A DNA stretch of 64,000 nucleotides, from assembly GCF_040732315.1 (NCBI RefSeq), contig NZ_CP160388.1:2384494-2448493 (forward strand). Reading direction: 5' to 3'. The notes beneath the pieces were generated by a model that saw nothing but the letters and a program-made list of their open reading frames with translations, was not told where the DNA came from and ran no database searches. Positions 43,384 to 58,418 of the stretch are shown here, piece after piece. The position numbers and the translations under genes are program-made. Positions within the stretch are counted from its first letter, which is position 1. Each line of letters starts with the position of its first letter. The stretch is from Oryzisolibacter sp. LB2S (lineage in GTDB: Bacteria; Pseudomonadota; Gammaproteobacteria; Burkholderiales; Burkholderiaceae_C).

Positions 43384-45051
43384 TTAAGCGACTGCGGCCT
43401 GCGTCTGTGGTGCACGCTGCAGGCCCGAGAGAATGGCGCGCATGGAGGCCGAGACGATGTTGGCGTCCATGCCCACGCCGTACACCGTGTGCCGCCCGTC
43501 GATGCGCATCTCGACATAGGCCACGGCCTTGGCGCCGGCGCCCTCGCCCACGGCGTGTTCGCTGTAGTCGAGCACGCGGACCTCGCGCTCGAGCGCGGCC
43601 GACATGGCCTGCACGAAGGCGTCGATGGGGCCCGTGCCCTCACCCTCGACCGCCATGCGCTCGCCCTGCCAGTGCAGGCTGGCACTCAGCGAAAAGCCCT
43701 CCTCCTGCTCCTGCATGCGGTAGGCGGGCGCCGCCACGGACTGCAGGCGGTATTCGCGCTCGAACAGGCCCCAGAGGTCATCGGCCGTGAGTTCCTTGCC
43801 GCTCGCGTCCATTTCGCGCTGCACGGTCTGGCTGAATTCGATCTGCAGGCGGCGCGGAAGTTGCAGGCCGTATTCGCTCTCGAGCAGATAGGCGATGCCG
43901 CCCTTGCCCGACTGGCTGTTGACGCGGATCACGGCCTCGTAGCTGCGGCCCAGGTCCTTGGGGTCTATCGGCAGGTAGGGCATGTCCCAGACATCGCCCT
44001 CGCGGCGCGCGGCAAAGGCCTTCCTGATCGCGTCCTGGTGCGAGCCCGAGAACGAGGTGTAGACCAGGTCGCCCACATAGGGGTGGCGCGGGTGCACGGG
44101 CAGCTGGTTGCAGTATTCGACCGTGCTGCGGATGGCGTCGATGTCGGAGAAATCGAGCCCCGGCGACACGCCCTGGGTGTACATGTTGAGCGCCACGTTG
44201 ACCACGTCGAGGTTGCCGGTGCGCTCGCCATTGCCGAACAGACAGCCCTCGAGGCGGTCGGCGCCGGCCATGAGGGCCAGCTCGGCCGTGGCCGTACCGG
44301 TGCCGCGGTCGTTGTGCGGGTGCACGGACAGCACGATGCTGTCCCTGCGCTGCACATGGCGGTGCGTCCACTCCACCATGTCGGCAAAGACATTGGGCGT
44401 GGAATGCTCGACCGTGGTCGGCAGGTTGATGATGCATTTCTTCTGCGGCGTAGGCTGCCAGACGGCGGTCACGGCGTCGATCACGCGCGCGGAGAATGCA
44501 AGCTCGGTGTCCGAGTACATCTCGGGCGAATACTCGAAGGTCCAGTCCGTGGCCGGGTGGCGCGCGGCCATGTCCTTGAACATCTGCGCGTGCTCGGTCG
44601 CCAGGGCCACGATTTCGTCCTCGCTCATACCCAGCACCACGCGGCGCATCACCGGCGCCGTGGCGTTGTACAGGTGGACGATGGCGCGCGGCGCGCCCTC
44701 GAGCGCCTCGAAGGTGCGGCGGATCAGGGGCTCGCGCGCCTGGGTCAGCACCTGGATGGTTACGTCGTCGGGGATGCGGTCTTCCTCGATGAGTTTGCGC
44801 ACAAAGTCGAACTCGACCTGAGAGGCCGATGGGAAGCCGACCTCGATCTCCTTGAAGCCGATTTTCACGAGCTGCTCGAACATGCGCATCTTGCGCGCGA
44901 TGTCCATGGGCTCGATCAGGGCCTGATTGCCGTCGCGCAGATCCACGCTGCACCAGATGGGCGCCTTGGTGATCACCGCATCGGGCCAGCGGCGATCCGT
45001 GAGGCGCACGGGGGCAAAGGGGCGGTACTTGGCGGCGGGGTTCTGCAGCAT
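43384..45051 (-). CDS. leuA: 2-isopropylmalate synthase, long (yeast-like) form
   Basis: About 555 residues. It starts [15 protein letters not shown], and [18 protein letters not shown] near residue 34, [41 protein letters not shown] (in parts) and [21 protein letters not shown] are typical of the long-form family. The regulatory domain is C-terminal. It catalyses the same reaction as the next gene. ATG 45051 has a purine-rich AAGAGAG in front; ATG 45069 is in frame but has no such site. The gene lies 63 bases after the leader terminator. Confidence 0.92.
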
Positions 45052-45113
45052 CGGGGCACTCTCTTTCATGGAACAAGGATATGAATCCGGTCTGTGCTCC
45101 AGCGACCCCGAGG

Positions 45114-45150
45114 AAAACAAAAACGGCCCGTCGCTGGTGCTACGGGCCGT
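45114..45150 (-). terminator. Attenuator terminator in the leuA leader
   Basis: On the minus strand ACGGCCCGT (45150-45142) and ACGGGCCGT (45131-45123) form a perfect 9-base stem with a 10-base loop, followed by TTTTTGTTTT. It lies between the Leu-rich leader peptide and leuA, so it can stop transcription unless ribosome stalling prevents the stem. Confidence 0.9.
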
Positions 45151-45249: not shown

Positions 45250-45255
45250 ACTCTA
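45250..45255 (-). promoter_or_regulatory. Possible extended -10 of the leuL promoter
   Basis: TAGAGT preceded by TGC on the minus strand fits an extended -10. It overlaps the last codons of the LysR gene and would place the transcript start at or next to the leuL ATG. No good -35 is visible. Confidence 0.4.
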
Positions 45256-46155
45256 GCACAAAAGTGAATTCTTCAGCCGCGCCTCGAGAAAACGGCGGAA
45301 CTCCTGCGCCGCAGGCGTCGGCGCCCTGCCCCGGCGCGTGAAGATCCAGAAGCTGCGCTCCACCACCGGATCGCCCACGGGGCGCATGACCAGCCCGAAC
45401 TGCTCGACCAGCGAGCGCGCATAGGGCATGCACAGCGTAATCCCCAGGCCCGCGCGCACCAGCGCCAGCGCCGTGGTCATGAAGGTCACCTGCATGAAGG
45501 CCTCCTTGTGCAGATTGCGTGCGGCCTCGCCCATGTCGGTCACGAGCAGCTCGGTGAACTGCCCCTGCAGCGTGATGAGGGACTGCCCGGACAGGTCGGG
45601 CCACTGCAGGTCGCCACGTGACGCCAGCGCATGGCCCGGCGGCATCACGGCCATGAAGGGCAGGCAGAACAGCTGCTCGGCGTCGATGTCGGAATTGGCA
45701 TCGCGCTCCGGGCCCAGGCCCATGTCCACCTCGCCGGAGAACACGCGCGCCATCACGCTCTCGACGGCACAGTCGACCAGGCGCAGCTGCACGCCCGGGT
45801 GTTGCTCGCGGAACTCCGCCATGAGATCGGGCAGCAGCGTGCAGGCCAGCAGCTGCGGCACGGCCACACGCACGCTGCCGCGCTGCAGCGCCTTGAGGTT
45901 GCCGACCTCGCTGATCACGCCGCCCAGGTCGTTCAGGATTTTCTCGATCTGCGGATACAGCTCGCGCCCGGTGTCCGACAGGCGCAGGCGGCGCGTGCTG
46001 CGGTCGAACAGGCGCAGGCCGAGGATGGATTCGAGCTCCTTGATCAGCCCGCTCAGGGCCGACTGGGTGATGAAGAGGCGCTCGGCCGCCAGCGTGAAGC
46101 TGCCGGTGTCAGCCACGGCCACGAACGCGGACAGCTGACGCAGTGTCACATTCAT
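45253..46155 (-). CDS. LysR family transcriptional regulator of the divergent catabolic operon
   Basis: Encodes 300 residues. The N-terminal helix-turn-helix is LRQLSAFVAVADTGSFTLAAERL with QSALSGLIKELE; the effector-binding domain runs from about 90 to 295 (VRVAVPQLLACTLLPDLMAEF). LysR proteins usually activate a divergent operon in response to a pathway intermediate. It is divergent from the MBL-FAD monooxygenase operon with a 98-base AT-rich gap holding a LysR-type palindrome, so that operon is the likely target. Its end lies only 10 bases from leuL, so the leuA promoter must sit within this gene. Confidence 0.9.
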   Translation of the reverse strand: MNVTLRQLSAFVAVADTGSFTLAAERLFITQSALSGLIKELESILGLRLFDRSTRRLRLSDTGRELYPQIEKILNDLGGVISEVGNLKALQRGSVRVAVPQLLACTLLPDLMAEFREQHPGVQLRLVDCAVESVMARVFSGEVDMGLGPERDANSDIDAEQLFCLPFMAVMPPGHALASRGDLQWPDLSGQSLITLQGQFTELLVTDMGEAARNLHKEAFMQVTFMTTALALVRAGLGITLCMPYARSLVEQFGLVMRPVGDPVVERSFWIFTRRGRAPTPAAQEFRRFLEARLKNSLLC

Positions 46156-46253: not shown

Positions 46254-47219
46254 ATGAGTGAAAAAAAATTTGCCTCCCAGGCCGATCTTGAGGAAAAGAA
46301 GGTCAGCTGGGAAAAACTCAGCGACAACGCCTATGCCTACACCGCCGAGGGCGACCCCAACACCGGCGTCATCATTGGCGACGACGGCTGCATGATCATC
46401 GACGCCACGGCCACGCCCGTGGCCGCGCAGGGCGTGATCGCCAAGATCCGCGAGATCACCGACAAGCCCATCAAGTACGTGGTGCTGACCCACTACCACG
46501 CCGTGCGCGTGCTCGGCGCCTCGGGGTACAAGAACGAGGGGCTGGAGCAGATCATCGCCAGCCGCGACACCTACGACCTCATCGTCGAGCGCGGCCAGCA
46601 GGACATGGACTCCGAGATCGGACGCTTCCCGCGCCTGTTCCAGGCCGTCGAGAGCGTGCCCGGCCTGACCTGGCCGACCATGACCTTCGAGGGCGAGATG
46701 GTGCTGTGGCTCGGCAAGCTCGAGGTACGCATCAAGCAGGTCGGCCGCGGCCACACCAAGGGCGATGCCATCGTCTATATCCCGAGCCAGAACATCTGCT
46801 TCTCGGGCGACCTGGTCGAGGCCGACGCAGCCTGCTACACCGGCGACGCCTACCTGGCCGACTGGCCGCAGACGCTGGACAACCTGGCCGCCATGAACTT
46901 CGACAAGCTCGTGCCCGGCCGCGGCCCGGCGCTGATGACGCCCGCCGCAGTGCAAAAGGGCCTGGCCTACACCCGCGACTTCGTCTCCACCCTCTACCAG
47001 AGCGCGCAGCAAGCCGTGGCCCAGGGCATGGACCTGAACGCCTGCATGAAGCACACGCGCAAGGCCATGGATCCGAAGTTCGGCCAGGTCTTCATCTACG
47101 AGCACTGTCTGCCCTTTGACGTGACGCGGGCCCACGACGAGGCCAGTGGCATCCGCGATCCGCGCATCTGGACGGCCGAGCGCGACCAGCAGATGTGGCA
47201 CGCACTTCAGCAGGGTTGA
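46254..47219 (+). CDS. MBL-fold metallo-hydrolase of the catabolic operon
   Basis: Encodes 321 residues. The beta-lactamase-like fold is shown by GVIIGDDGCMIIDATATP near residue 38, the metal motif LTHYHAVRVLGAS (His80, His82), VGRGHTKGDAIVYIP and CFSGDLVEADAAC. The usual HxHxDH motif lacks its Asp-His half here, so one of the two metal sites may be missing or altered. It may hydrolyse a lactone, ester or thioester made in the pathway. It is the first gene after the LysR operator and lies 83 bases before the FAD monooxygenase gene. AGGAGC precedes the ATG. Confidence 0.85.
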   Translation: MSEKKFASQADLEEKKVSWEKLSDNAYAYTAEGDPNTGVIIGDDGCMIIDATATPVAAQGVIAKIREITDKPIKYVVLTHYHAVRVLGASGYKNEGLEQIIASRDTYDLIVERGQQDMDSEIGRFPRLFQAVESVPGLTWPTMTFEGEMVLWLGKLEVRIKQVGRGHTKGDAIVYIPSQNICFSGDLVEADAACYTGDAYLADWPQTLDNLAAMNFDKLVPGRGPALMTPAAVQKGLAYTRDFVSTLYQSAQQAVAQGMDLNACMKHTRKAMDPKFGQVFIYEHCLPFDVTRAHDEASGIRDPRIWTAERDQQMWHALQQG

Positions 47220-47224
47220 AGCCA

Positions 47225-47277
47225 CAAAAACAATAGCTACCCACGCCTTACTGACAAGCGCCAGGGGCCATTTTTGG
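47225..47277 (+). repeat. Dispersed palindromic repeat, copy H
   Basis: AAAAACAATAGCT, then GCCTT, a loop, CAAGCGC, CAGGGGCC and a T-run. It starts 6 bases after the MBL gene stop and lies inside the operon. Confidence 0.8.
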
Positions 47278-47302
47278 CATCACTACAGGATTCAAGAGAC
47301 AA

Positions 47303-48967
47303 ATGCTGAAGACCTACACCTACCCCAAGTTTGACTACGTGCGCCCGCCCGAACTGGCAGAGCAGCGCGACGGCCACTACCCCGTGGTGGTGGTCGGTGC
47401 GGGCCCCGTGGGCCTGACCATGGCTATCGACCTGGCGCAGCAGGGCCAGCGCGTGCTGCTGCTGGACAACGACGACACGGTGTCGATCGGCTCGCGCGGT
47501 GTCTGCTATGCCAAGCGCACGCTTGAGGTGCTTGACCGCCTGGGCTGTGGCACGCCCTGCGTGGACAAGGGCACGTCCTGGGACGTGGGCCGCACCTTCT
47601 TTGGCGAGGGCGAGGTCTTCCACTTCAACCTGCGCCCCCAGGAAGGCCACCAGCGCCCCGGCATGGTGAACCTGCAGCAGTACTACCTGGAGGACTACCT
47701 GGTCCAGCGCGCCCGCGCGCTGCCCAACCTGGAGATACGCTTCAAGAACAACGTCATCGCCGTGGAGCAGGACGCCGAGAAGGCCACGCTGCGCGTGGAG
47801 ACGCCCGACGGCGCCTACACCCTGACGACCGACTGGCTCGTGGTGGCCGACGGCGCGCGCTCGCCCATCCGCCGCATGCTGGGCCTCGATATCGAGGGCA
47901 AGATCTTCATGGACCGCTTCCTGATCGCCGACGTGGTCATGAAGGCCGATTACCCGGCCGAGCGCTGGTTCTGGTTCGACCCACCGTTTCACCGCAACCA
48001 GTCGGTGCTGCTGCACAAGCAGGCGGACAACGTCTGGCGCATCGACTTCCAGCTCGGCTGGGACGCCGACCCCGAGGTCGAGAAGAGGCCCGAGAACGTC
48101 ATCCCGCGCATCAAGGCCATGCTGGGCGACGAGCGCGAGTTCGAGCTCGAGTGGGTCAGCGTCTACACCTTCCAGTGCCGACGCATGGGACGCTTCAACC
48201 ACAACCGCGTGCTCTTCGTGGGCGACGCCGCGCACCAGGTCTCGCCCTTTGGCGCACGCGGCGCCAACAGCGGCATCCAGGACGCGGACAATCTGGCCTG
48301 GAAGCTCAAGCTCGTGCTCGACGGCAAGGCGCCCGCATCGCTCCTGGACAGCTACAGCGCCGAGCGCTGCTATGCCGCCGACGAGAACATCATGAACTCG
48401 ACGCGCTCGACCGACTTCATCACGCCCAAGAGCAAGACCAGCAAGGCCTTCCGCAACGCGGTGCTCGAGCTCGCGCAGGACTACCCGTTTGCGCGCGCCC
48501 TGGTCAACTCGGGCCGCCTGTCGGTGCCCACCTGGCTCGTCGAATCACCACTGAACACGCCCGATGCCGATGCCTTTGCCGGCAACATGATTCCCGGCGC
48601 CCCCATGGACGACGCTCCCGTGCAGGGCGGCCGCGGCAGCTGGCTGCTCGCCGGCATGGACTCGCAGTTCCAGCTGCTGTACTACGTGGAGGACGCGGGC
48701 AGCCTGGACGCCGCCACCGTCCAGTCCCTGGCCGCGCTGGCCGATGCCCCGATACCCGTGCTTGCGACCGTGGTCGCCGCCCGTGGCCAGGCCCCCGCGC
48801 CACTGCCCACGCTGATCGACGCGCAAGAAGCGATCCGCAGCCGCTACGACATGCAGCACGGCACCTGCTACCTGCTGCGCCCCGACCAGCATGTGGCCGC
48901 GCGCTGGCGCCAGCTGGACGCCGCCCAGGTACGCGCCGCCGTGGCCCGTGCCACGGGCAACGCCTGA
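47303..48967 (+). CDS. FAD-dependent aromatic monooxygenase (MhpA-like)
   Basis: Encodes 554 residues of the class A flavoprotein hydroxylases. The FAD motif VVVVGAGPVGLTMAIDLAQQG has GxGxxG at 32-37; LVVADGARSPIRRMLGL near residue 182 is the DG motif, and VLFVGDAAHQVSPFGARGANSG near residue 303 the GD motif. The C-terminus (about 420-554) is a thioredoxin-like domain as in phenol and 3-(3-hydroxyphenyl)propionate hydroxylases. It probably adds a hydroxyl to a phenolic ring with NAD(P)H and O2. The substrate is unknown. A DUF2783-like gene follows after 21 bases. Confidence 0.87.
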   Translation: MLKTYTYPKFDYVRPPELAEQRDGHYPVVVVGAGPVGLTMAIDLAQQGQRVLLLDNDDTVSIGSRGVCYAKRTLEVLDRLGCGTPCVDKGTSWDVGRTFFGEGEVFHFNLRPQEGHQRPGMVNLQQYYLEDYLVQRARALPNLEIRFKNNVIAVEQDAEKATLRVETPDGAYTLTTDWLVVADGARSPIRRMLGLDIEGKIFMDRFLIADVVMKADYPAERWFWFDPPFHRNQSVLLHKQADNVWRIDFQLGWDADPEVEKRPENVIPRIKAMLGDEREFELEWVSVYTFQCRRMGRFNHNRVLFVGDAAHQVSPFGARGANSGIQDADNLAWKLKLVLDGKAPASLLDSYSAERCYAADENIMNSTRSTDFITPKSKTSKAFRNAVLELAQDYPFARALVNSGRLSVPTWLVESPLNTPDADAFAGNMIPGAPMDDAPVQGGRGSWLLAGMDSQFQLLYYVEDAGSLDAATVQSLAALADAPIPVLATVVAARGQAPAPLPTLIDAQEAIRSRYDMQHGTCYLLRPDQHVAARWRQLDAAQVRAAVARATGNA

Positions 48968-48988
48968 GACCAACAAGGAGACAACACC

Positions 48989-49219
48989 ATGCCCCTGATC
49001 ACCGAACCCCACCTCAAGGAACCCGGCAAGCGCTACTTCCAGGCCTACTCGCCCGGCGACGACTTCTACGAGGCCCTGATCGACACCCACCAGGGATTGA
49101 GCGACGAGCAAAGCCTGGCCGTGAACGCACGCCTGGTGCTGCTGCTGGCCAACCATATCGGCGACATCACCGTGCTGCGCGAGGCCATGGCCATTGCGCG
49201 CAAACCCTTCAACGACTGA
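48989..49219 (+). CDS. Small DUF2783-like protein
   Basis: Encodes 76 residues, soluble and mildly acidic, without cysteines. GDDFYEALIDTHQGLSDEQSLAVNARL fits (seen in parts) the small family I remember as DUF2783, which occurs next to flavoprotein monooxygenases of this type. No biochemical role is known to me; a subunit or stabiliser of the monooxygenase is a guess from its constant position. AAGGAG precedes the ATG. The VOC gene starts 25 bases later. Confidence 0.75.
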   Translation: MPLITEPHLKEPGKRYFQAYSPGDDFYEALIDTHQGLSDEQSLAVNARLVLLLANHIGDITVLREAMAIARKPFND

Positions 49220-49244
49220 CCCACAACCATCCAAGGAGACAACC

Positions 49245-49799
49245 ATGGCCTTTCTGAACGGCGTCCACCATGTCGCCTACCGCTGCAAGAACGCAAAGCA
49301 AACCGTGGAGTGGTACCAGAAATACCTGGACGCCAACTTCATCCTGGCGATTGCGGAGAACGAGGTGCCCTCCACCAAGGAGCCCGACCCGTACATGCAC
49401 ATCTTCATCGACATCGGCGGCGGCAACATCCTGGCCTTCTTCGAGCTGCCGACCAAGCCCGAGATGATCGCGCCCTCGGATGCCAATACGCCCTCGTGGA
49501 CGCAGCATCTGGCGCTCAAGGTCGATTCGATCGACACCATGATGAAAGTGAAGGCCAAGATGGAGGCCGACGGCATCCAGGTCATTGGCCCCACCAATCA
49601 CACCATCTTCCAGTCAATCTACTTCCGCGACCCCTCGGGCCACCGTCTGGAACTGGCCGTCAACACGGCCACGCCGCAGATGGACAAGGCGCTCGACGAC
49701 GTGAAGTGGGACATGCTCAATGAATGGGACCGCACCAAGAAGGCGCCCGAGCATGCACGCTGGATGCACGACGGCTCGGGCCGCGTAGGCCCGCACTGA
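49245..49799 (+). CDS. VOC-superfamily protein, candidate ring-cleavage dioxygenase or isomerase
   Basis: Encodes 184 residues with paired VOC modules. Possible metal ligands are His8/His9 (GVHHVAYRC), His88 (WTQHLALKV) and Glu136 (GHRLELAVN), the 2-His-1-Glu set of extradiol dioxygenases and glyoxalases. Its place between an aromatic hydroxylase and genes for fumarylacetoacetate hydrolase and maleylacetoacetate isomerase suggests ring cleavage, because no cupin-type homogentisate or gentisate dioxygenase is present. It is shorter than typical extradiol dioxygenases (about 290), so a lyase or isomerase role is also possible. AAGGAG precedes the ATG. Confidence 0.8.
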   Translation: MAFLNGVHHVAYRCKNAKQTVEWYQKYLDANFILAIAENEVPSTKEPDPYMHIFIDIGGGNILAFFELPTKPEMIAPSDANTPSWTQHLALKVDSIDTMMKVKAKMEADGIQVIGPTNHTIFQSIYFRDPSGHRLELAVNTATPQMDKALDDVKWDMLNEWDRTKKAPEHARWMHDGSGRVGPH

Positions 49800-49807
49800 A
49801 GCCCGCC

Positions 49808-49826
49808 GTGGGCTGAGGCAGCCCAC
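49808..49826 (+). other. Hairpin between the VOC and MFS genes
   Basis: GTGGGCT and AGCCCAC pair perfectly around a 5-base loop 9 bases after the VOC stop; no T-run follows. The rest of the 147-base gap (49800-49946) is GC-rich without a gene. It may mark partial termination inside the operon. Confidence 0.45.
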
Positions 49827-49946
49827 CGCTTTCCCAACCTGCCCAAGCACAGGCGCCCAGGCGCCCTGTGCCGGGCGTTGCTGCGCCCAATGCAGCAGAA
49901 CAGACACACCAAGGGTGCGGCAAGCACCCGCCCCAGGAGACACCCC

Positions 49947-51326
49947 ATGCCCCGCACGCAGCACGCGTCAGCCGTAGACATAGGCCACACACTCGACCAT
50001 GGCCCCTTCAGCAGCCTGCAGAAGTGGGTGGTGCTGATGGCCGCGCTGTCCATCATCCTCGACGGCTTCGATGGCCAGCTCATCGGTTTTGCCATTCCCG
50101 TGATCATCAAGGAATGGGGCATAGAGCGCAGCGCCTTCGCCCCGGCCGTGGCCTCGGGCCTGATCGGCATGGCGCTGGGCAGCGCGTTCGCTGGCTACAT
50201 GGCCGACCGCATCGGACGCCGGCTCGTCATCGCCGCCAGCGTGGCGCTGTTCGGCGCCACCACCATCGCCATCGGCTTTGCACCCAACATCCTCGCCATC
50301 ACCATGCTGCGCTTCATTGCCGGTCTGGGCATTGGCGGCGCCCTTCCCAGCGCCTCCACGCTGACGGCGGAGTTCACCCCACTGCGCTACCGCACCATCG
50401 CCGTCACCGCCACCATCGTGAGCTATCCGCTGGGCGGCATGCTGGCCGGCCTGTTTGCCAGTACCGTGCTGCCCAGCCTGGGCTGGCGCGCCATGTTCTG
50501 GATTGGCGGTGCCCTGCCCCTGGCCTACAGCCTGGTATTGCTGGCCCGCCTACCCGAGTCGCCGCGCCTGATGGCACGCCACAGCGCCCAATGGCCGCAG
50601 TTGCGCGCGCTGCTCACCCGCATGCAGCGCCCCACGGCGGCCGATGCCGGCTTCGTCGATGCCGCGGAGCAGCTGGTGGGCCAGCAGCAGCGCGCAGGCT
50701 TCGGCGCGCTGTTCAAGGACGGTCTGGCGCGCGACACCCTGGCCATCTGGATGGGCTTCTTCATGGTCATGCTGGCGTCCTACAGCGCCTTCAGCTGGCT
50801 GCCCTCCATGCTCACGGCAGAAGGCCTGCCGGTGTCCATGGCCAGCTCCGGACTGACGGCCTACAACCTGGGCGGCGTGCTCGGCGCCCTGGGCTGCGCC
50901 TGGGCCATGGCGCGCTTCGGCTCGCGCTGGCCGCTGATGCTGGCCTGCGCCGGTGCGGCTGCAAGCGCTCTGCTGCTCAAGGGCGTGGACTTTCACAGAG
51001 ACGCAAGTCTGCTGATGCTGGGCCTGGGCGTGCACGGCATGTTCGTCAACGGCGTGCAGGCCCCCATGTATGCGCTCTGTGCCCATGTCTACGCCACGCA
51101 GATTCGCGCCACGGGCACGGCCGCGGGCCTGGCCTTCGGCCGCCTCGGGGCCATCCTGAGCTCGTTTGCCGGCGCTGCCATCATCACCTCCAACGGCGCC
51201 TCCGGCTACCTGTCGCTGCTGGGCTATGCCATGGTGGCTGCCCTGGTCGCGCTGGCGCTGGTGCAGCGCCACATCCACCGTCCGCGCACGCCGGACAATA
51301 CCCGCACCGCGTCGCAGTCGGCATGA
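49947..51326 (+). CDS. MFS transporter, aromatic acid:H+ symporter (AAHS) type
   Basis: Encodes 459 residues with 12 membrane segments. ILDGFDGQLIGFAIPVI in segment 1 carries the DGxD motif typical of aromatic-acid symporters (PcaK/MhpT type); GYMADRIGRRLVI after segment 2 is the MFS signature, and LPESPRLMARH lies in the central loop. It probably brings the aromatic substrate of this operon into the cell. CCAGGAGA precedes the ATG. The FAH gene follows after 46 bases. Confidence 0.87.
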   Translation: MPRTQHASAVDIGHTLDHGPFSSLQKWVVLMAALSIILDGFDGQLIGFAIPVIIKEWGIERSAFAPAVASGLIGMALGSAFAGYMADRIGRRLVIAASVALFGATTIAIGFAPNILAITMLRFIAGLGIGGALPSASTLTAEFTPLRYRTIAVTATIVSYPLGGMLAGLFASTVLPSLGWRAMFWIGGALPLAYSLVLLARLPESPRLMARHSAQWPQLRALLTRMQRPTAADAGFVDAAEQLVGQQQRAGFGALFKDGLARDTLAIWMGFFMVMLASYSAFSWLPSMLTAEGLPVSMASSGLTAYNLGGVLGALGCAWAMARFGSRWPLMLACAGAAASALLLKGVDFHRDASLLMLGLGVHGMFVNGVQAPMYALCAHVYATQIRATGTAAGLAFGRLGAILSSFAGAAIITSNGASGYLSLLGYAMVAALVALALVQRHIHRPRTPDNTRTASQSA

Positions 51327-51372
51327 GCCGATCGCCCCACACGTCACACACCATAAGCAAAGGAGTCACACC

Positions 51373-52386
51373 ATGAAACTCGCAACCCTGCAGCAAGGCG
51401 GCCGCGACGGCACGCTGGTCGTCGTCAGCCGGGACCTCAAGCGCTGCCGCGCCGTTCCCGCCATTGCGCGCACCATGCTGGCCGCGCTCGATGACTGGGC
51501 CACCGTGGAGCCGCAGCTGCGCCAGGTCTACGAGGCCCTCAACAGCGGCGCCATCGAGGGCGAGGCCTTCGACCAAGCCGCCTGCCACAGCCCGCTGCCG
51601 CGCACCTGGCAATGGGCCGACGGCTCGGCCTACATCAACCATGTGGAGCTGGTGCGCCGCGCGCGCAATGCAGAGGTGCCCGAGAGCTTCTACACCGACC
51701 CGCTGATGTACCAAGGCGGCAGCGACGGATTCATCCCGCCGCGCGGGGAGGTGGTGGCCCAGGAGGCCTGGGGCATCGACTTCGAGGCCGAGGTCACCGT
51801 GGTCACGGGTGACGTGCCCCAGGGCGCCACGCCCGAGCAGGCGGCCAAGGCCATCCGTCTGGTGATGCTGGTCAACGACGTGAGCCTGCGCAACCTGATC
51901 CCTGCCGAGCTCGCCAAGGGCTTTGGCTTCTTCCAGAGCAAGCCCGCGAGCGCCTTCAGCCCCGTGGCCGTCACGCCCGACGAGCTGGGCGCCGCCTGGC
52001 AGGACGCCAAGGTGCACCTGCCGCTCGTCGTGCACCTCAACGATCAGCTCTTCGGCAAGCCCAACGCGGGCGTGGACATGACCTTCGACTTCGGCCGGCT
52101 CGTCGCCCATGTGGCCAAGACGCGCACGCTGTGCGCGGGCTCCATCGTCGGCTCGGGCACGGTGTCGAACAAGCAGGGCAATCTGTGGGGCTCGTCGATC
52201 GCCAACGGCGGCGTGGGCTACTGCTGCCTGGCCGAGGTGCGCACCTACGAAACCATAGAGCAGGGCAAGCCCATCACGCCCTTCATGAAGCATGGCGACA
52301 AGGTGCGCATCGAGATGTTCGATGCCGAGGGCCAGAGCATCTTCGGCGCCATAGAGAACCAGGTGAACACCGCCAAGGCCGCCTGA
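51373..52386 (+). CDS. Fumarylacetoacetate hydrolase family protein
   Basis: Encodes 337 residues. The metal-binding segments are WGIDFEAEVTVVTGDV (Glu-x-Glu) near residue 134 and VMLVNDVSLRNLIP (Asp) near residue 168; GKPNAGVDMTFDFGRLVAHV and SIVGSGTVSNKQG follow. This matches the short bacterial fumarylacetoacetase type that splits a fumaryl-oxo acid into fumarate and an oxo acid. Together with the next gene it forms the last two steps of a homogentisate- or gentisate-like pathway. AGGAG precedes the ATG; maiA follows after 8 bases. Confidence 0.9.
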   Translation: MKLATLQQGGRDGTLVVVSRDLKRCRAVPAIARTMLAALDDWATVEPQLRQVYEALNSGAIEGEAFDQAACHSPLPRTWQWADGSAYINHVELVRRARNAEVPESFYTDPLMYQGGSDGFIPPRGEVVAQEAWGIDFEAEVTVVTGDVPQGATPEQAAKAIRLVMLVNDVSLRNLIPAELAKGFGFFQSKPASAFSPVAVTPDELGAAWQDAKVHLPLVVHLNDQLFGKPNAGVDMTFDFGRLVAHVAKTRTLCAGSIVGSGTVSNKQGNLWGSSIANGGVGYCCLAEVRTYETIEQGKPITPFMKHGDKVRIEMFDAEGQSIFGAIENQVNTAKAA

Positions 52387-52394
52387 GGCGCACC

Positions 52395-53048
52395 ATGCTC
52401 AAGCTCTATTCGTACTTTCGCAGCTCGGCCGCCTACCGCGTGCGCATTGCGCTGGCCCTCAAGGGGCTGGCGTATGACACCATCCCTGTGCACCTGCTGA
52501 AGGACGGTGGCCAGCAGCACACGAACGCCTTTCGCAGCGCCAACCCGCAGGGGCTGGTGCCGGCGCTGCAGCTCTCTGCCGAGGGCCCGGTGCTGGCGCA
52601 GTCGCTGGCCATCATCGAGTACCTCGACGAAACCCAGGGCGGCCCCGCCCTGCTGCCCAAGGATGCCCTGGGCCGCGCGCGCGTGCGCGCCCTGGCGCAG
52701 ATGGTGGCCTGCGAGATCCATCCCCTGAACAATCTGCGCGTGCTCAAGTACCTCAAGCGCAACCTAGGCATATCCGACGCCCAAAAGGACGCCTGGTACG
52801 CCCACTGGGTGGCACTGGGCCTGCAGGCCGTGGAGGACACGCTGACGCGCGGCAACGAGACGGGGCGCTTCTGCCATGGCGAAAGCCCCGGCCTGGCCGA
52901 CTGCTGCCTCGTGCCTCAAGTATTCAACGCCAGGCGCTTCAACTGCGCGCTGGATGCCTACCCCACGATCAACCGCATCGTCGAGGCCTGCGAGCAGCTG
53001 CCGGCCTTCCAGCAGGCCGCGCCCGACATGCAGCCCGACGCGGAATGA
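52395..53048 (+). CDS. maiA: Maleylacetoacetate isomerase (zeta-class GST)
   Basis: Encodes 217 residues. The N-terminal thioredoxin-like domain has YSYFRSSAAYRVRIALALKG, including the zeta-GST SSxxYRVRIAL motif, and NPQGLVPALQ for glutathione binding; the helical domain has ACEIHPLNNLRVLKYL and a C-terminal PGLADCCLVPQVFNARRF. It isomerises maleyl- to fumaryl-oxo acids using glutathione, feeding the FAH-family hydrolase encoded just upstream. It is the last gene of the operon and ends 4 bases from the convergent pssA. Confidence 0.92.
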   Translation: MLKLYSYFRSSAAYRVRIALALKGLAYDTIPVHLLKDGGQQHTNAFRSANPQGLVPALQLSAEGPVLAQSLAIIEYLDETQGGPALLPKDALGRARVRALAQMVACEIHPLNNLRVLKYLKRNLGISDAQKDAWYAHWVALGLQAVEDTLTRGNETGRFCHGESPGLADCCLVPQVFNARRFNCALDAYPTINRIVEACEQLPAFQQAAPDMQPDAE

Positions 53049-53052
53049 GGGT

Positions 53053-53889
53053 TCAGTGGTGCAGCCCCTGCTCGTCCGGCTCGTCGGTCGAGGTGCTGAT
53101 CACGCTGGTCTGCTGGCCCTTGGCCTTGCGCCAGGCATAGAGCACATAGCCCGACAGACCGTAGAGCACAAAAATGCCGAACAGCACCGTGGGCGGGTGG
53201 ATGTTGACCACGGCAATGCCCAGCGCAATCAGCACGATGACGGCAAAGGGCACGCTCTTCTTCATGTGCAGGTCCTTGAAGCTGTAGAACGGCACATTGG
53301 TGACCATGGTCAGCCCCGCGTAGAGCGTGAAGCCGAACATCACCCAGGTGATGTGCTGCCAGGACAGGCCCAGCACCGGCTGGCCCGGATGCACGCCGGC
53401 GTCGGTGAGCAGCCAGATGAAGCCCATGACCAGCGCCGCGGCCGCGGGCGACGGCAGGCCCTGGAAGTAGCGCTTGTCCACCACGCCCGTGTTCACGTTG
53501 AAGCGAGCCAGACGCAGCGCCGCACAGGCGCAGTAGACGAAGGCCGCAATCCAGCCCCAGCGTCCCAGGCCCTGCAGCGCCCAGATGTAGGCAATGAGCG
53601 CGGGCGCGGCGCCAAACGACACCATGTCGGACAGCGAATCCATCTGCTCGCCAAAGGCGCTCTGCGTGTTCGTCATGCGCGCCACGCGGCCGTCCAGGCT
53701 GTCGAGCACCATGGCGCAGAACACGCCGATGGAGGCGAGCTCGAAGCGCCCGTTCATGGCCATGACGATGGCATAGAACCCGCCGAACAGGGCCGCCAGC
53801 GTGAACAGGTTGGGCAACACATAAATGCCCTTGCGGCGCTTGTGGACCAGCACCTCGGCGACTTCGGCGGCTTCGTTGCCATCATGCAT
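53053..53889 (-). CDS. pssA: CDP-diacylglycerol--serine O-phosphatidyltransferase PssA
   Basis: Encodes 278 residues with about eight membrane segments. The CDP-alcohol phosphotransferase motif DGRVARMTNTQSAFGEQMD followed by SLSD (residues about 64-86) shows all required Asp and Gly residues. It makes phosphatidylserine, the precursor of phosphatidylethanolamine, in the inner membrane. Its ATG lies 8 bases after a GGAGG that belongs to copy I of the dispersed repeat, so the repeat appears to supply its ribosome binding site. It lies downstream of ilvC on the same strand, past a terminator. Confidence 0.93.
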   Translation of the reverse strand: MHDGNEAAEVAEVLVHKRRKGIYVLPNLFTLAALFGGFYAIVMAMNGRFELASIGVFCAMVLDSLDGRVARMTNTQSAFGEQMDSLSDMVSFGAAPALIAYIWALQGLGRWGWIAAFVYCACAALRLARFNVNTGVVDKRYFQGLPSPAAAALVMGFIWLLTDAGVHPGQPVLGLSWQHITWVMFGFTLYAGLTMVTNVPFYSFKDLHMKKSVPFAVIVLIALGIAVVNIHPPTVLFGIFVLYGLSGYVLYAWRKAKGQQTSVISTSTDEPDEQGLHH

Positions 53890-53891
53890 TC

Positions 53892-53943
53892 AATCGACCT
53901 CCAGCGCTTTGTACACAAGTACAAGCAGCTACATAACTCATAG
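53892..53943 (-). repeat. Dispersed palindromic repeat, copy I (pssA leader)
   Basis: Read on the minus strand: TGTAGCTG, TTGTAC, a short loop, GTACAA, AGCGCT and GGAGGTCGATTG. The stem is shifted to TTGTAC/GTACAA. Its GGAGG is at ribosome-binding distance from the pssA ATG. Confidence 0.75.
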
Positions 53944-54003
53944 TAAAAACACACCCTGCAGGGTGCGCGGGAGGGGGCAGTGTAGCCCCGACCCGCAGCA
54001 CGC

Positions 54004-54027
54004 AAAAAAGGCCACCGAGGTGGCCTT
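54004..54027 (-). terminator. Intrinsic terminator of the ilvBNC operon
   Basis: On the minus strand AAGGCCAC and GTGGCCTT form an 8-base stem with a 4-base loop, followed by a T-run (six Ts counting the last two stem bases). It lies 43 bases after the ilvC stop. Confidence 0.9.
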
Positions 54028-54069
54028 GGCAGTTGCATCGGCGCGGGCCAGAGCCGCGCCGCGCACGCA

Positions 54070-55770
<1,701 letters not shown>

Positions 55771-57563
55771 TTAGAGATCTTCAGATCCCAGCAGCATCTC
55801 GGTAATGCCCTTGCCGGCCTGCACCATGGGGAAGACGTTCTCGGTCGGGTCGGTGCGGAAGTCCAGGAACACGGTGCGGTCCTTGAGCTTGCGCGCCTCG
55901 CGCAGCGCGGGCTCCACGTCCTGCGGGCGCTCGATGAGCATGCCCACATGGCCATAGGCCTCGGCCAGCTTCACGAAGTTGGGCAGCGCGTCCATGTAGC
56001 TGTGGCTGTAGCGGCCCGAGTACTCGATCTCCTGCCACTGGCGCACCATGCCCAGGTAGCGGTTGTTCAGCGACAGGATCTTGATCGGCGTGTTGTACTG
56101 CAGGCAGGTGGACAGCTCCTGGATGTTCATCTGCACCGAGCCCTCGCCCGTCACGCAGAACACCTCGGACTCGGGCTTGGCGAGCTTGATGCCCATGGCG
56201 TAGGGAATGCCCACGCCCATGGTGCCCAGACCGCCCGAGTTGATCCAGCGGCGCGGCTCGTCGAACTTGTAGAACTGCGCGGCCCACATCTGGTGCTGGC
56301 CCACGTCGGAGGTGATGTAGGCGTCGGCGTCCTTCGTCATGTTCCACAGCGTCTCGATGACGTACTGCGGCTTGATGACCTCGGTGTTGCCCCGGTCGTA
56401 CTTGAGGCAGTCGCGGCCGCGCCAGGCCTCGATCTGGTTCCACCACGCGGCCAGCGCGCCGGCGTCGGCACGCTGGGTGGTTTCGCGGATCATGGAGATC
56501 AGCTCGGACAGCACCTCCTTGACATCGCCCACGATGGGAATGTCCACCTTCACACGCTTGGAGATGCTTGACGGGTCGATGTCGATGTGGATGATCTTGC
56601 GGTCGTTCTGCGCGAAATGCTTGGGGTTGCCGATCACGCGATCGTCAAAGCGCGCCCCCACGGCCAGCAGCACATCGCAGTTCTGCATGGCGTTGTTGGC
56701 CTCGATCGTGCCGTGCATGCCAAGCATGCCCAGGAAGCGCTGGTCGGTCGCCGGGAAGCCCCCCAGGCCCATCAGCGTGTTCGTGACCGGGTAGCCCAGC
56801 AGGTCGACCAGGGTGCGCAGTTCGGCCGTGGCATTGCCCAGCAGCACGCCGCCGCCGGTATAGATATAGGGGCGCTTGGCCGTGAGCAGCAGCTGCAGCG
56901 CCTTGCGGATCTGGCCCGCATGGCCCTTTCTGACGGGGTTGTAGGAGCGCATCTCCACGCTCTGCGGATAGCCGTGAAAGCTCGTCTTCTTGAACGACAC
57001 ATCCTTGGGGATGTCCACCACCACGGGGCCGGGGCGGCCGGTGCGCGCGATGTGGAAGGCCTTCTTCAGCGTCATGGCCAGGTCGCGCACATCCTTGACC
57101 AGGAAGTTGTGCTTGACGATGGGGCGCGTGATGCCCACGGTGTCGCATTCCTGGAAGGCGTCGAGCCCGATGGCGGGCGTGGGCACCTGGCCGGAGATGA
57201 TGACCATGGGGATGGAATCCATGTAGGCCGTGGCAATGCCCGTCACGGCGTTCGTCAGGCCCGGGCCCGAGGTGACCAGCGCCACCCCCACCTCGCCCGT
57301 GGCGCGGGCGTAGCCGTCGGCCGCATGCACGGCCGCCTGTTCGTGGCGCACCAGCACATGCTGAATGGTTCCTGCTTGTAGAGCGCGTCGTAGATGTAGA
57401 GGACGGCGCCGCCGGGATAGCCCCACATGTACTGCACGTTCTCGGCCTGCAGGGCCTTGACGAGGATTTCGGCACCCATGAGTTCCTGGGAGCCGGAGGC
57501 GTGGGAGTGGTTGCCGCGAGCGGCCTGTGCTGCCGAGTGGAGTTCGGCCTTGGAGATTTCCAT
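55771..57563 (-). pseudogene. ilvB: Acetolactate synthase large subunit gene with a single-base frameshift
   Basis: The frame from ATG 57563 encodes MEISKAELHSAAQAARG and the start of the TPP-binding domain up to LYIYDALYKQ (residue about 65), then runs into unrelated sequence. The rest, from TIQHVLVRHEQAAVHAADGY to LLGSEDL at the TAA at 55771, is intact in the next frame. The total length is 1793 bases, one short of a whole number of codons (1794 would give 597 residues). The deletion lies at about 57367-57371, where homologs have Gln-Asp-Thr-Ile and one C of GACACC is missing. All later motifs are present (GDVGQHQMWAAQ-type region, GTMGVGIPYAMG, and the FAD and TPP segments). A free-living cell needs this gene unless a second synthase exists, so a sequencing error is as likely as a real mutation. 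The 285-base gap upstream shows no clear leader peptide or terminator. Confidence 0.85.
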
Positions 57564-57848
57564 GATCAACCTTTGCGAATTTCTCTGACGAAAAACCTTG
57601 GGTGCCCCTCGTGCGCGCTCTTGTGAAGCCGACTTGGAACTTAAGGCCTCGGCCATGGGCGAGATGAGTGTGACGCCGAACCGGGACCCGTTTGCCTTTT
57701 TGAACTGCAGCCGCGATTATTGCACTGCACACACAGTCTTGCGCATGGCAACGATAAAAATACCACCCCAATGCCATAATCCGCCCTTCGCGACGGGGCT
57801 CACGCCCGCTGCACCGCATCAACCGGCCTGTCTCCGGCCTATCGTCTT

Positions 57849-58418
57849 TTGGCAACCGAACAAGAGCTTTCCGACTTCCTCAAGAGCGTGGACAAACGCG
57901 CGTTCAAGCGCACGCTTTACCACGTCCGCAACGAGGAAGCGGCCCTGGACATCGTCCAGGACAGCATGCTCAAGCTGGCCGAGCACTATGGAGACAAGCC
58001 CGTGGGCGAGCTGCCCATGCTGTTTCAGCGCATTCTCACGAACTGCACGCTGGACTGGTTCCGCCGGCAGAAGACTCGCAACGCGCTGTTTTCCAGCATG
58101 AGCGACTTCGAGGGCCCGGGCGAGGACGGGGCGGATTTCGATCTGCTGGAAGTCCACGCGGGCAAGCCCGAAGGCGACGCGGCGCAGAGTGCCGAGGATG
58201 CCCTGCGGCAGACACAGGTTTTACAAGCGATTGAGACCGAGATACAACTGTTGCCCGCGCGTCAACGCGAAGCGTTTCTGATGCGTTACTGGGAGGAAAT
58301 GGACGTCGCGGAAACGGCAGCCGCCATGGGCTGCTCGGAGGGCAGCGTCAAGACCCACTGCTTTCGCGCCGTCCAGACGCTCAGCAAGGCCCTCAAGGCC
58401 AAAGGAATCGTGCCATGA
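57849..58418 (+). CDS. ECF-type RNA polymerase sigma factor
   Basis: Encodes 189 residues. Region 2 lies at about 15-75 (NEEAALDIVQDSMLKLAEHY, then ILTNCTLDWFRRQ) and region 4 at about 125-185 (LPARQREAFLMRYWEEMDV and the helix-turn-helix AAAMGCSEGSVKTHCFRA). It directs RNA polymerase to a specific promoter set. The start is TTG 57849; upstream there is no ATG in frame at a fitting distance. It overlaps the DUF3619 gene by 4 bases, the usual coupling of ECF sigma factors with a membrane anti-sigma partner. Confidence 0.9.
   Translation: MATEQELSDFLKSVDKRAFKRTLYHVRNEEAALDIVQDSMLKLAEHYGDKPVGELPMLFQRILTNCTLDWFRRQKTRNALFSSMSDFEGPGEDGADFDLLEVHAGKPEGDAAQSAEDALRQTQVLQAIETEIQLLPARQREAFLMRYWEEMDVAETAAAMGCSEGSVKTHCFRAVQTLSKALKAKGIVP

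Follow-up and report, generated by a model that had tools for sequence, protein, structure and literature searches.

We have examined an aromatic catabolism operon of Oryzisolibacter sp. LB2S, located in a 64,000-nucleotide window of its genome (NZ_CP160388.1, positions 2,384,494 to 2,448,493), in which a small VOC protein is found and no cupin ring-cleavage dioxygenase. The window is part of a single 3.84 Mb contig, and the closest named relatives by VOC identity are Alicycliphilus and Comamonas assemblies. Seven same-strand genes occupy positions 46254-53048 of the window, with a LysR gene diverging from them upstream:

45253-46155, reverse strand: LysR-type regulator (Pfam HTH_1 and LysR_substrate)
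46254-47219, forward strand: MBL-fold protein, 321 residues (Lactamase_B)
47303-48967, forward strand: FAD-dependent aromatic hydroxylase, MhaA-like, 554 residues (NF006002, PRK08132; FAD_binding_3)
48989-49219, forward strand: DUF2783 protein, 76 residues (PF10932, 100.2 bits, cut-off 25)
49245-49799, forward strand: VOC protein, 184 residues (9u42_A match, residue invariance and gene neighbourhoods)
49947-51326, forward strand: AAHS-like MFS aromatic acid transporter, 459 residues (TIGR00895)
51373-52386, forward strand: fumarylacetoacetate hydrolase (FAH), short type, 337 residues (Pfam FAA_hydro_N_2 and FAA_hydrolase)
52395-53048, forward strand: maleylacetoacetate isomerase MaiA, 217 residues (TIGR01262, 300.5 bits, cut-off 171.05)

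The intergenic gaps, in gene order from the MBL to the MaiA gene, are 83, 21, 25, 147, 46 and 8 bases, and GGAG directly precedes the start in five of the seven genes. For the family scans, the start of the VOC protein was set two codons too early and those of the MFS and MaiA proteins one codon too late. Judged by its position, the LysR protein is probably the regulator of the operon. The genes named by a first-pass annotation of this DNA, their order and the length of the VOC protein all proved correct; the transporter is AAHS-like, as had been claimed, but scores below the cut-off of the AAHS family (TIGR00895, E 5.9e-90, 302 bits against 418.55). The closest solved chain to the FAH is 3lzk_A (E 6.2e-134), the entry to which an excerpt of PMC9115942 matches its own 'fumarylacetoacetate hydrolase'. 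MaiA is the only one of ten matches in the genome to exceed the TIGR01262 cut-off; it is of no use as a discriminating marker, being present in 272 of the 299 genomes of the taxonomic family.

A search of the VOC protein against the sequences of solved structures returned a single strong match, 9u42_A (E 1.5e-64, residues 4-176), a chain of 182 residues that is 54% identical to it over 173 columns. The phmmer label of this chain reads only 'Glyoxalase', while the Protein Data Bank (PDB) title of entry 9U42 is 'Crystal Structure of Homogentisate 1,2-Dioxygenase from Acinetobacter in Complex with Zn ion'. Gene neighbourhoods in Ideonella and Acinetobacter baumannii had indicated homogentisate before this title was seen. 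Six residues, H9, H88, E136, H52, H119 and Y126, are the same in every one of 118 aligned rows, a set that includes the window and duplicates, and are also kept when five distant VOC members are part of a 33-row alignment, so that the His/His/Glu set reported earlier is real. H9, H88 and E136 are probably metal ligands and H52, H119 and Y126 probably form a second shell, roles that we assume by analogy with the two-module extradiol enzymes. The predicted model (pLDDT 87.2) has a VOC fold, and a Pfam scan of the protein gave no match to a cupin family. Other identities were considered and set aside: the match to catechol 2,3-dioxygenase is remote (TIGR03211, E 6.2e-9, 35.6 bits against a cut-off of 320.2) and those to fosfomycin or thiol transferases are weak only. 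Combined, the 9U42 match and title, the neighbourhoods in which VOC stands between 4-hydroxyphenylpyruvate dioxygenase (HPD) and fahA genes, and the invariant residues bear out the earlier nomination of the VOC protein as the candidate ring-cleaving enzyme, which is most likely a non-cupin homogentisate 1,2-dioxygenase. As the Acinetobacter structure already bears that name, such an enzyme belongs to a known, little-described kind. Searches of the open-access literature, most subscription journals lying outside this scope, brought up no report of a homogentisate dioxygenase of the VOC type, nor the depositors' accounts of 9U42 and 8D2Z (the latter the closest match of the MBL protein, see below), which were sought there by entry code only.

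Relatives of the VOC gene lie among genes of homogentisate breakdown: the gene-neighbour comparison that the first-pass annotation had proposed links them to HPD, MaiA and FAH. The order in Ideonella is hppD-VOC-fahA and that of an A. baumannii locus (L093) is fahA-maiA-VOC-IclR with hppD adjoining, with no hmgA in the stretch shown in either case; VOC relatives 72-78% identical to the operon protein adjoin HPD. Flanks of 5 kb on both sides are available for 83 of 115 close VOC loci, part of which were chosen for HPD or HgmA. These 83 loci include 69 with FAH, 49 with an MhaA-like hydroxylase, 10 with HPD and 6 with cupin HgmA, and HgmA occurs in none of the 10 HPD loci. When only the 56 full-flank loci obtained from the VOC relative search alone are counted, the corresponding numbers are 47 for FAH, 38 for MhaA-like, 4 for HPD and 0 for HgmA. 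Outside the taxonomic family, 20 VOC regions were examined from 37 genomes with a match; eight have HPD beside VOC without HgmA, four the MhaA-like hydroxylase without HgmA, three this hydroxylase together with HgmA, and five no other reference gene.

The feeding enzyme is less constant than the VOC protein. At locus L002 the VOC protein is 97% identical to that of the operon and the hydroxylase just 33%. Feeder types were mapped onto a tree thinned to 83 VOC proteins, whose bootstrap is not fully settled: the HPD label changes 8 times (mean of shuffled labels 10.6) and the MhaA-like label 14 times (25.2), a partly clustered but mixed distribution. Of these changes, at least 4 and at least 5, respectively, are required by well-supported branches. 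VOC is thus kept while the feeding hydroxylase changes, and its association is with the lower pathway rather than with any single feeder.

The rest of the host genome agrees with a missing cupin enzyme. An HPD gene scoring over its family cut-off is located about 0.9 Mb from the operon, and the host should therefore make homogentisate from tyrosine; none of the other reference genes was recognised in the 18.5 kb around it. Searches of the whole genome gave no match at E <= 0.01 to either the HgmA_C model (PF04209) or the gentisate 1,2-dioxygenase model (TIGR02272). The earlier observation that a cupin dioxygenase is absent therefore holds for the operon and, by these two models, for the genome, in which other ring-cleaving kinds were not searched; likewise, the homogentisate or gentisate dioxygenase that might have been encoded elsewhere did not appear. 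Of the two routes that had been offered, homogentisate-like or gentisate-like, the former is upheld by the HPD, FAH and 9U42 links and the latter is rejected, as no gentisate dioxygenase is matched in the genome and the hydrolase is closest to 3lzk.

In related operons VOC and cupin HmgA exchange places. Sphaerotilus carries MBL-FAD-DUF2783-(transport)-VOC-fahA, and in Loktanella (L148) and Roseomonas (L149) the same MBL, FAD and DUF2783 genes are accompanied by cupin hmgA and fahA, VOC being absent from the stretch shown. The exchange was followed through 150 MhaA-like places listed for the 299 genomes of the taxonomic family, with a reach of 9 kb: VOC only was found at 59, HgmA only at 44, both at 15 and neither at 32, and for 24 of the 32 the genome carries VOC or HgmA elsewhere. 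This exclusivity exceeds chance over the 150 places (Fisher p 2.5e-6) and with one genome per genus (25, 24, 5 and 14 in the same order, p 1.7e-4), in tests that ignore kinship between genera. At the level of genomes, 247 of the 299 are HPD-positive, 109 of them with HgmA (35 also with a close VOC) and 138 without; these 138 comprise 90 with a close VOC, 43 with a distant VOC only and 5 with none. Counting one HPD genome per genus, a close VOC is present in 35 of 62 HgmA-negative as against 14 of 52 HgmA-positive genera (p 0.002). The close form occurs, by the cut-off used here, in 138 of the 299 family genomes, and it was met in 41 of 398 genomes sampled across Pseudomonadota.

The upper part of the operon resembles a described hydroxylase system. 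Excerpts of PMC3053370 describe 3-hydroxyphenylacetate 6-hydroxylase as a flavoprotein, MhaA (566 residues), with a coupling protein, MhaB (60 residues), encoded beside hmg genes, and note that MhaA of strain LB400 was earlier annotated MhpA. The operon hydroxylase (NF006002, 854.7 bits, cut-off 416) and the DUF2783 protein, of 554 and 76 residues and encoded 21 bases apart, match MhaAB in size, order and company. By this likeness in size and gene order, the pair would be a 3-hydroxyphenylacetate 6-hydroxylase and its MhaB-like coupling protein, and 3-hydroxyphenylacetate is reasonably likely to be the substrate of the operon. DUF2783 accompanies the MhaA-like hydroxylase in 46 of 48 close VOC loci without HPD and occurs in none of 11 close VOC loci with another hydroxylase type; it also stands beside a 37-43% identical hydroxylase near the distant VOC described below, in 5 of 15 loci. 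The other type, a flavin hydroxylase 33-38% identical to the operon protein, replaces the MhaA-like enzyme in L002 (8402), L006, L007, L009, L017 and L020, where no DUF2783 was seen, and perhaps acts on another isomer of hydroxyphenylacetate.

The MBL protein is closest among solved chains to 8d2z_A (E 6e-151). It keeps the metal ligands H80, H82, H167 and D186 and has V84, R85 and R223 at the second-site positions; the motif HYHAVR is present in 61 of 64 aligned rows and PGRG in all 64. Its gene accompanies the MhaA-like hydroxylase in 44 of 48 loci, the other hydroxylase type in 4 of 11 and HPD alone in 0 of 9, and since it goes with hydroxylases and with none of the nine HPD-only loci, it probably acts in the upper pathway. 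DUF2783 and the MBL protein had both been listed as extra parts with no assigned step, which is still so for the latter, while DUF2783 together with the hydroxylase fits MhaAB, and these two are also found beside cupin hmgA in Loktanella and Roseomonas.

From these observations, the operon most likely encodes a homogentisate pathway in which a small VOC-fold enzyme stands in for cupin HmgA. Uptake of the phenolic acid would fall to the MFS protein, and the flavin hydroxylase, together with DUF2783, would convert 3-hydroxyphenylacetate to homogentisate. Holding Fe(II) at H9, H88 and E136, the VOC protein would then insert O2 and open the homogentisate ring to maleylacetoacetate, which MaiA would isomerise to fumarylacetoacetate and FAH would split into fumarate and acetoacetate. 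Tyrosine may be served by the same lower part, via the unlinked HPD.

Several known systems can be set beside this proposal. The mhaAB-hmgABC genes of Pseudomonas putida U and Paraburkholderia xenovorans LB400, as far as they are described in excerpts of PMC3053370, share with the operon a flavoprotein of about 560 residues, a small partner, clustered hmg genes and homogentisate as the central intermediate, whereas the operon has VOC in place of cupin HmgA, an additional MBL protein and AAHS-like transporter, and a short FAH. The Acinetobacter protein of 9U42 is of the same length class as the operon VOC and shares the conserved His/His/Glu; in contrast to the Acinetobacter arrangement, the operon is fed by its own flavin hydroxylase rather than an adjacent HPD, and its regulator is of the LysR and not the IclR type. 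Cupin HmgA (PF04209) occupies the same slot in related operons with a fold unrelated to VOC, and presumably the two catalyse the same reaction. Type I extradiol dioxygenases such as catechol 2,3-dioxygenase and BphC have the superfamily and metal ligand pattern in common with the operon VOC, to which BphC and LapB are weak structural matches, but they contain two VOC modules rather than one and act on catechols, while the substrate proposed here is a para-dihydroxy acid.

A. baumannii offers a partial parallel in the literature. Excerpts of PMC7646211 describe strain AB4353 as lacking an hmgA homologue and carrying a gene with a type I ring-cleaving dioxygenase domain between hmgC and hmgR, the position that the VOC gene takes in L093. 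In the first data column of an A. baumannii transcriptome table in PMC3758355, the transcripts A1S_3414, A1S_3415, A1S_3416 and A1S_3418, labelled fumarylacetoacetase, isomerase, 'glyoxalase' and HPD, are up 60-, 24-, 24- and 79-fold, respectively. Two further reports were not used as proof: 'hmgA' abolishes pigment in an A. baumannii strain in PMC9431530, whose available text does not state the reading frame, and the coordinates of 'hmgA' in an excerpt of PMC11945678 (633 bases, with a 14-base overlap with hmgB) fit maiA of L093. The name hmgA may have been used for different genes in the A. baumannii pyomelanin papers PMC11945678, PMC9431530 and PMC7646211.

A number of results weigh against the assignment of homogentisate cleavage to the VOC protein. 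The excerpt of PMC7646211 deems its dioxygenase gene probably inactive because the strain makes pyomelanin, and in the second column of the PMC3758355 excerpt the 'glyoxalase' is flat (1.02-fold) while its neighbours rise. The structural comparison is ambiguous: 9u42 is the top Foldseek match of the VOC model, but superposes poorly (TM 0.44, rmsd 17.2), perhaps due to a different module pairing in the crystal; it is not among the 50 rows given by a second structure aligner, in which methylmalonyl-CoA epimerases (Z 12.6) outrank the best extradiol enzyme (Z 11.2). At the level of the model, fold comparison adds little past the VOC fold and does not single out oxygenases. VOC and cupin HgmA occur together at 15 of the 150 hydroxylase loci and in the 3 outside-family regions mentioned above and, because the cupin enzyme is also present, VOC would be redundant or otherwise employed at such loci. 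Of the 83 full-flank loci, 14 lack a fumarylacetoacetate hydrolase in the 5 kb flanks, and in 14 none of the feeder types searched for is present. As many as 48 of the 138 HPD-positive, HgmA-negative family genomes carry no close VOC, and 13 of the 52 HPD-negative genomes do carry one. Since the operon VOC adjoins a hydroxylase and not HPD, it could act on another substrate than its HPD-linked relatives. Finally, the likeness to MhaAB is one of published size, gene order and company.

Such results leave room for a VOC protein that cleaves another 2,5-dihydroxy compound delivered by the hydroxylase, gentisate or a substituted hydroquinone, in a gentisate-like or new pathway, an explanation that we consider improbable. 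MaiA-type isomerases serve maleylpyruvate too, the hydroxylase is annotated at the subfamily level only, and some operons keep VOC and HgmA together, all of which would suit a different substrate. The hydrolase, however, is closest to 3lzk, to which the fumarylacetoacetate hydrolase of the PMC9115942 excerpt is matched, and related operons carry cupin hmgA with fahA. The HPD association of close relatives at 72-78% identity and the title of 9U42 likewise point to homogentisate. The suggestion in the first-pass annotation that the operon encodes an undescribed pathway for a substituted hydroquinone or phenol is accordingly not supported, with VOC relatives adjoining HPD and fumarylacetoacetase genes and a 54%-identical protein entered in the PDB as a homogentisate dioxygenase. 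It is more improbable still that the VOC protein is no oxygenase at all but an isomerase, epimerase or glutathione-dependent enzyme, cleavage falling to an unrecognised enzyme elsewhere or to a one-metal MBL protein. VOC folds do include epimerases and thiol transferases, which also match, and the MBL protein keeps a one-metal ligand set only; but the MBL gene is missing from all nine HPD-VOC loci without a hydroxylase, in which other oxygenases were not looked for, and H52, H119 and Y126 are invariant besides the metal triad, as would be expected of an extradiol-type centre; the PDB title also speaks against this reading.

A variant that does not exclude homogentisate cleavage by VOC is that the hydroxylase pair uses another phenolic acid yielding homogentisate, through 1-hydroxylation of 4-hydroxyphenylacetate, a C-1 reaction mentioned in the PMC3053370 excerpt, or from 2-hydroxyphenylacetate, for which an excerpt of PMC8449657 reports a P450 route. 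We regard this as rather unlikely. It would be accommodated by the descriptive nature of the likeness to MhaA, by the replacement of the hydroxylase in sister operons by one 33-38% identical to it, and by the presence of DUF2783 beside the 37-43% identical hydroxylase near the distant VOC; against it, the size, order and small partner match MhaAB, and DUF2783 goes with this hydroxylase type and not with the other (46 of 48 and 0 of 11 loci, as above).

Homogentisate cleavage is taught as the work of a cupin enzyme, and a genome without hmgA may be taken to have a broken tyrosine pathway. If the VOC protein is a homogentisate dioxygenase, a function would be given to the annotation 'VOC family protein', DUF2783 would be tied to a hydroxylase, the 'missing hmgA' of A. 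baumannii reported in the PMC7646211 excerpt would be explained, and a small alternative enzyme would become available for work on homogentisate and pyomelanin.

The distant VOC subfamily (L129-L143) is about 36-42% identical to the operon VOC and has the same His/His/Glu set; its matches were first counted with the close ones and later set apart. Its host genomes are HPD-positive and for the most part lack HgmA. At the six loci read (L129, L130, L134, L135, L137 and L139), its neighbours included no recognisable homogentisate gene, and inspection by eye found a valS-like gene nearby in L130, L137 and L139 and a galU-like gene in these and L135; a related hydroxylase and DUF2783 lie nearby in L132, L133, L138, L141 and L142. 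The distant form may serve in HPD genomes without HgmA or a close VOC, but its neighbourhoods do not show it, and it was not used as evidence for the operon VOC as a homogentisate dioxygenase. Only tentatively do we suggest that two related VOC subfamilies cleave homogentisate in nearly all HPD-positive, HgmA-negative relatives, 133 of 138 of which carry either, so that the non-cupin solution, left unnamed by annotation, may be about as common in the family as the classical one.

Some further arrangements were noted. VOC and cupin HgmA stand together in the clusters L123-L128, L181, L185 and L189. In L151-L156, MBL and MhaA-like genes lie near a gene, recognised by eye, for a tripartite tricarboxylate-type periplasmic substrate-binding protein, and neither HgmA nor a close VOC was found in these genomes. 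The flanks of the operon in the window (43384-45120 and 53053-57855) resemble leuA and pssA-ilvC-ilvH-ilvB by eye, a stretch of core biosynthesis. A conjugative IncFII plasmid of an Enterobacter sp. (NZ_CP074161.1, L089) carries, flanked by transposase genes, LysR, VOC, MFS, FAH and maiA genes that may constitute a mobile homogentisate module in Enterobacteriaceae.

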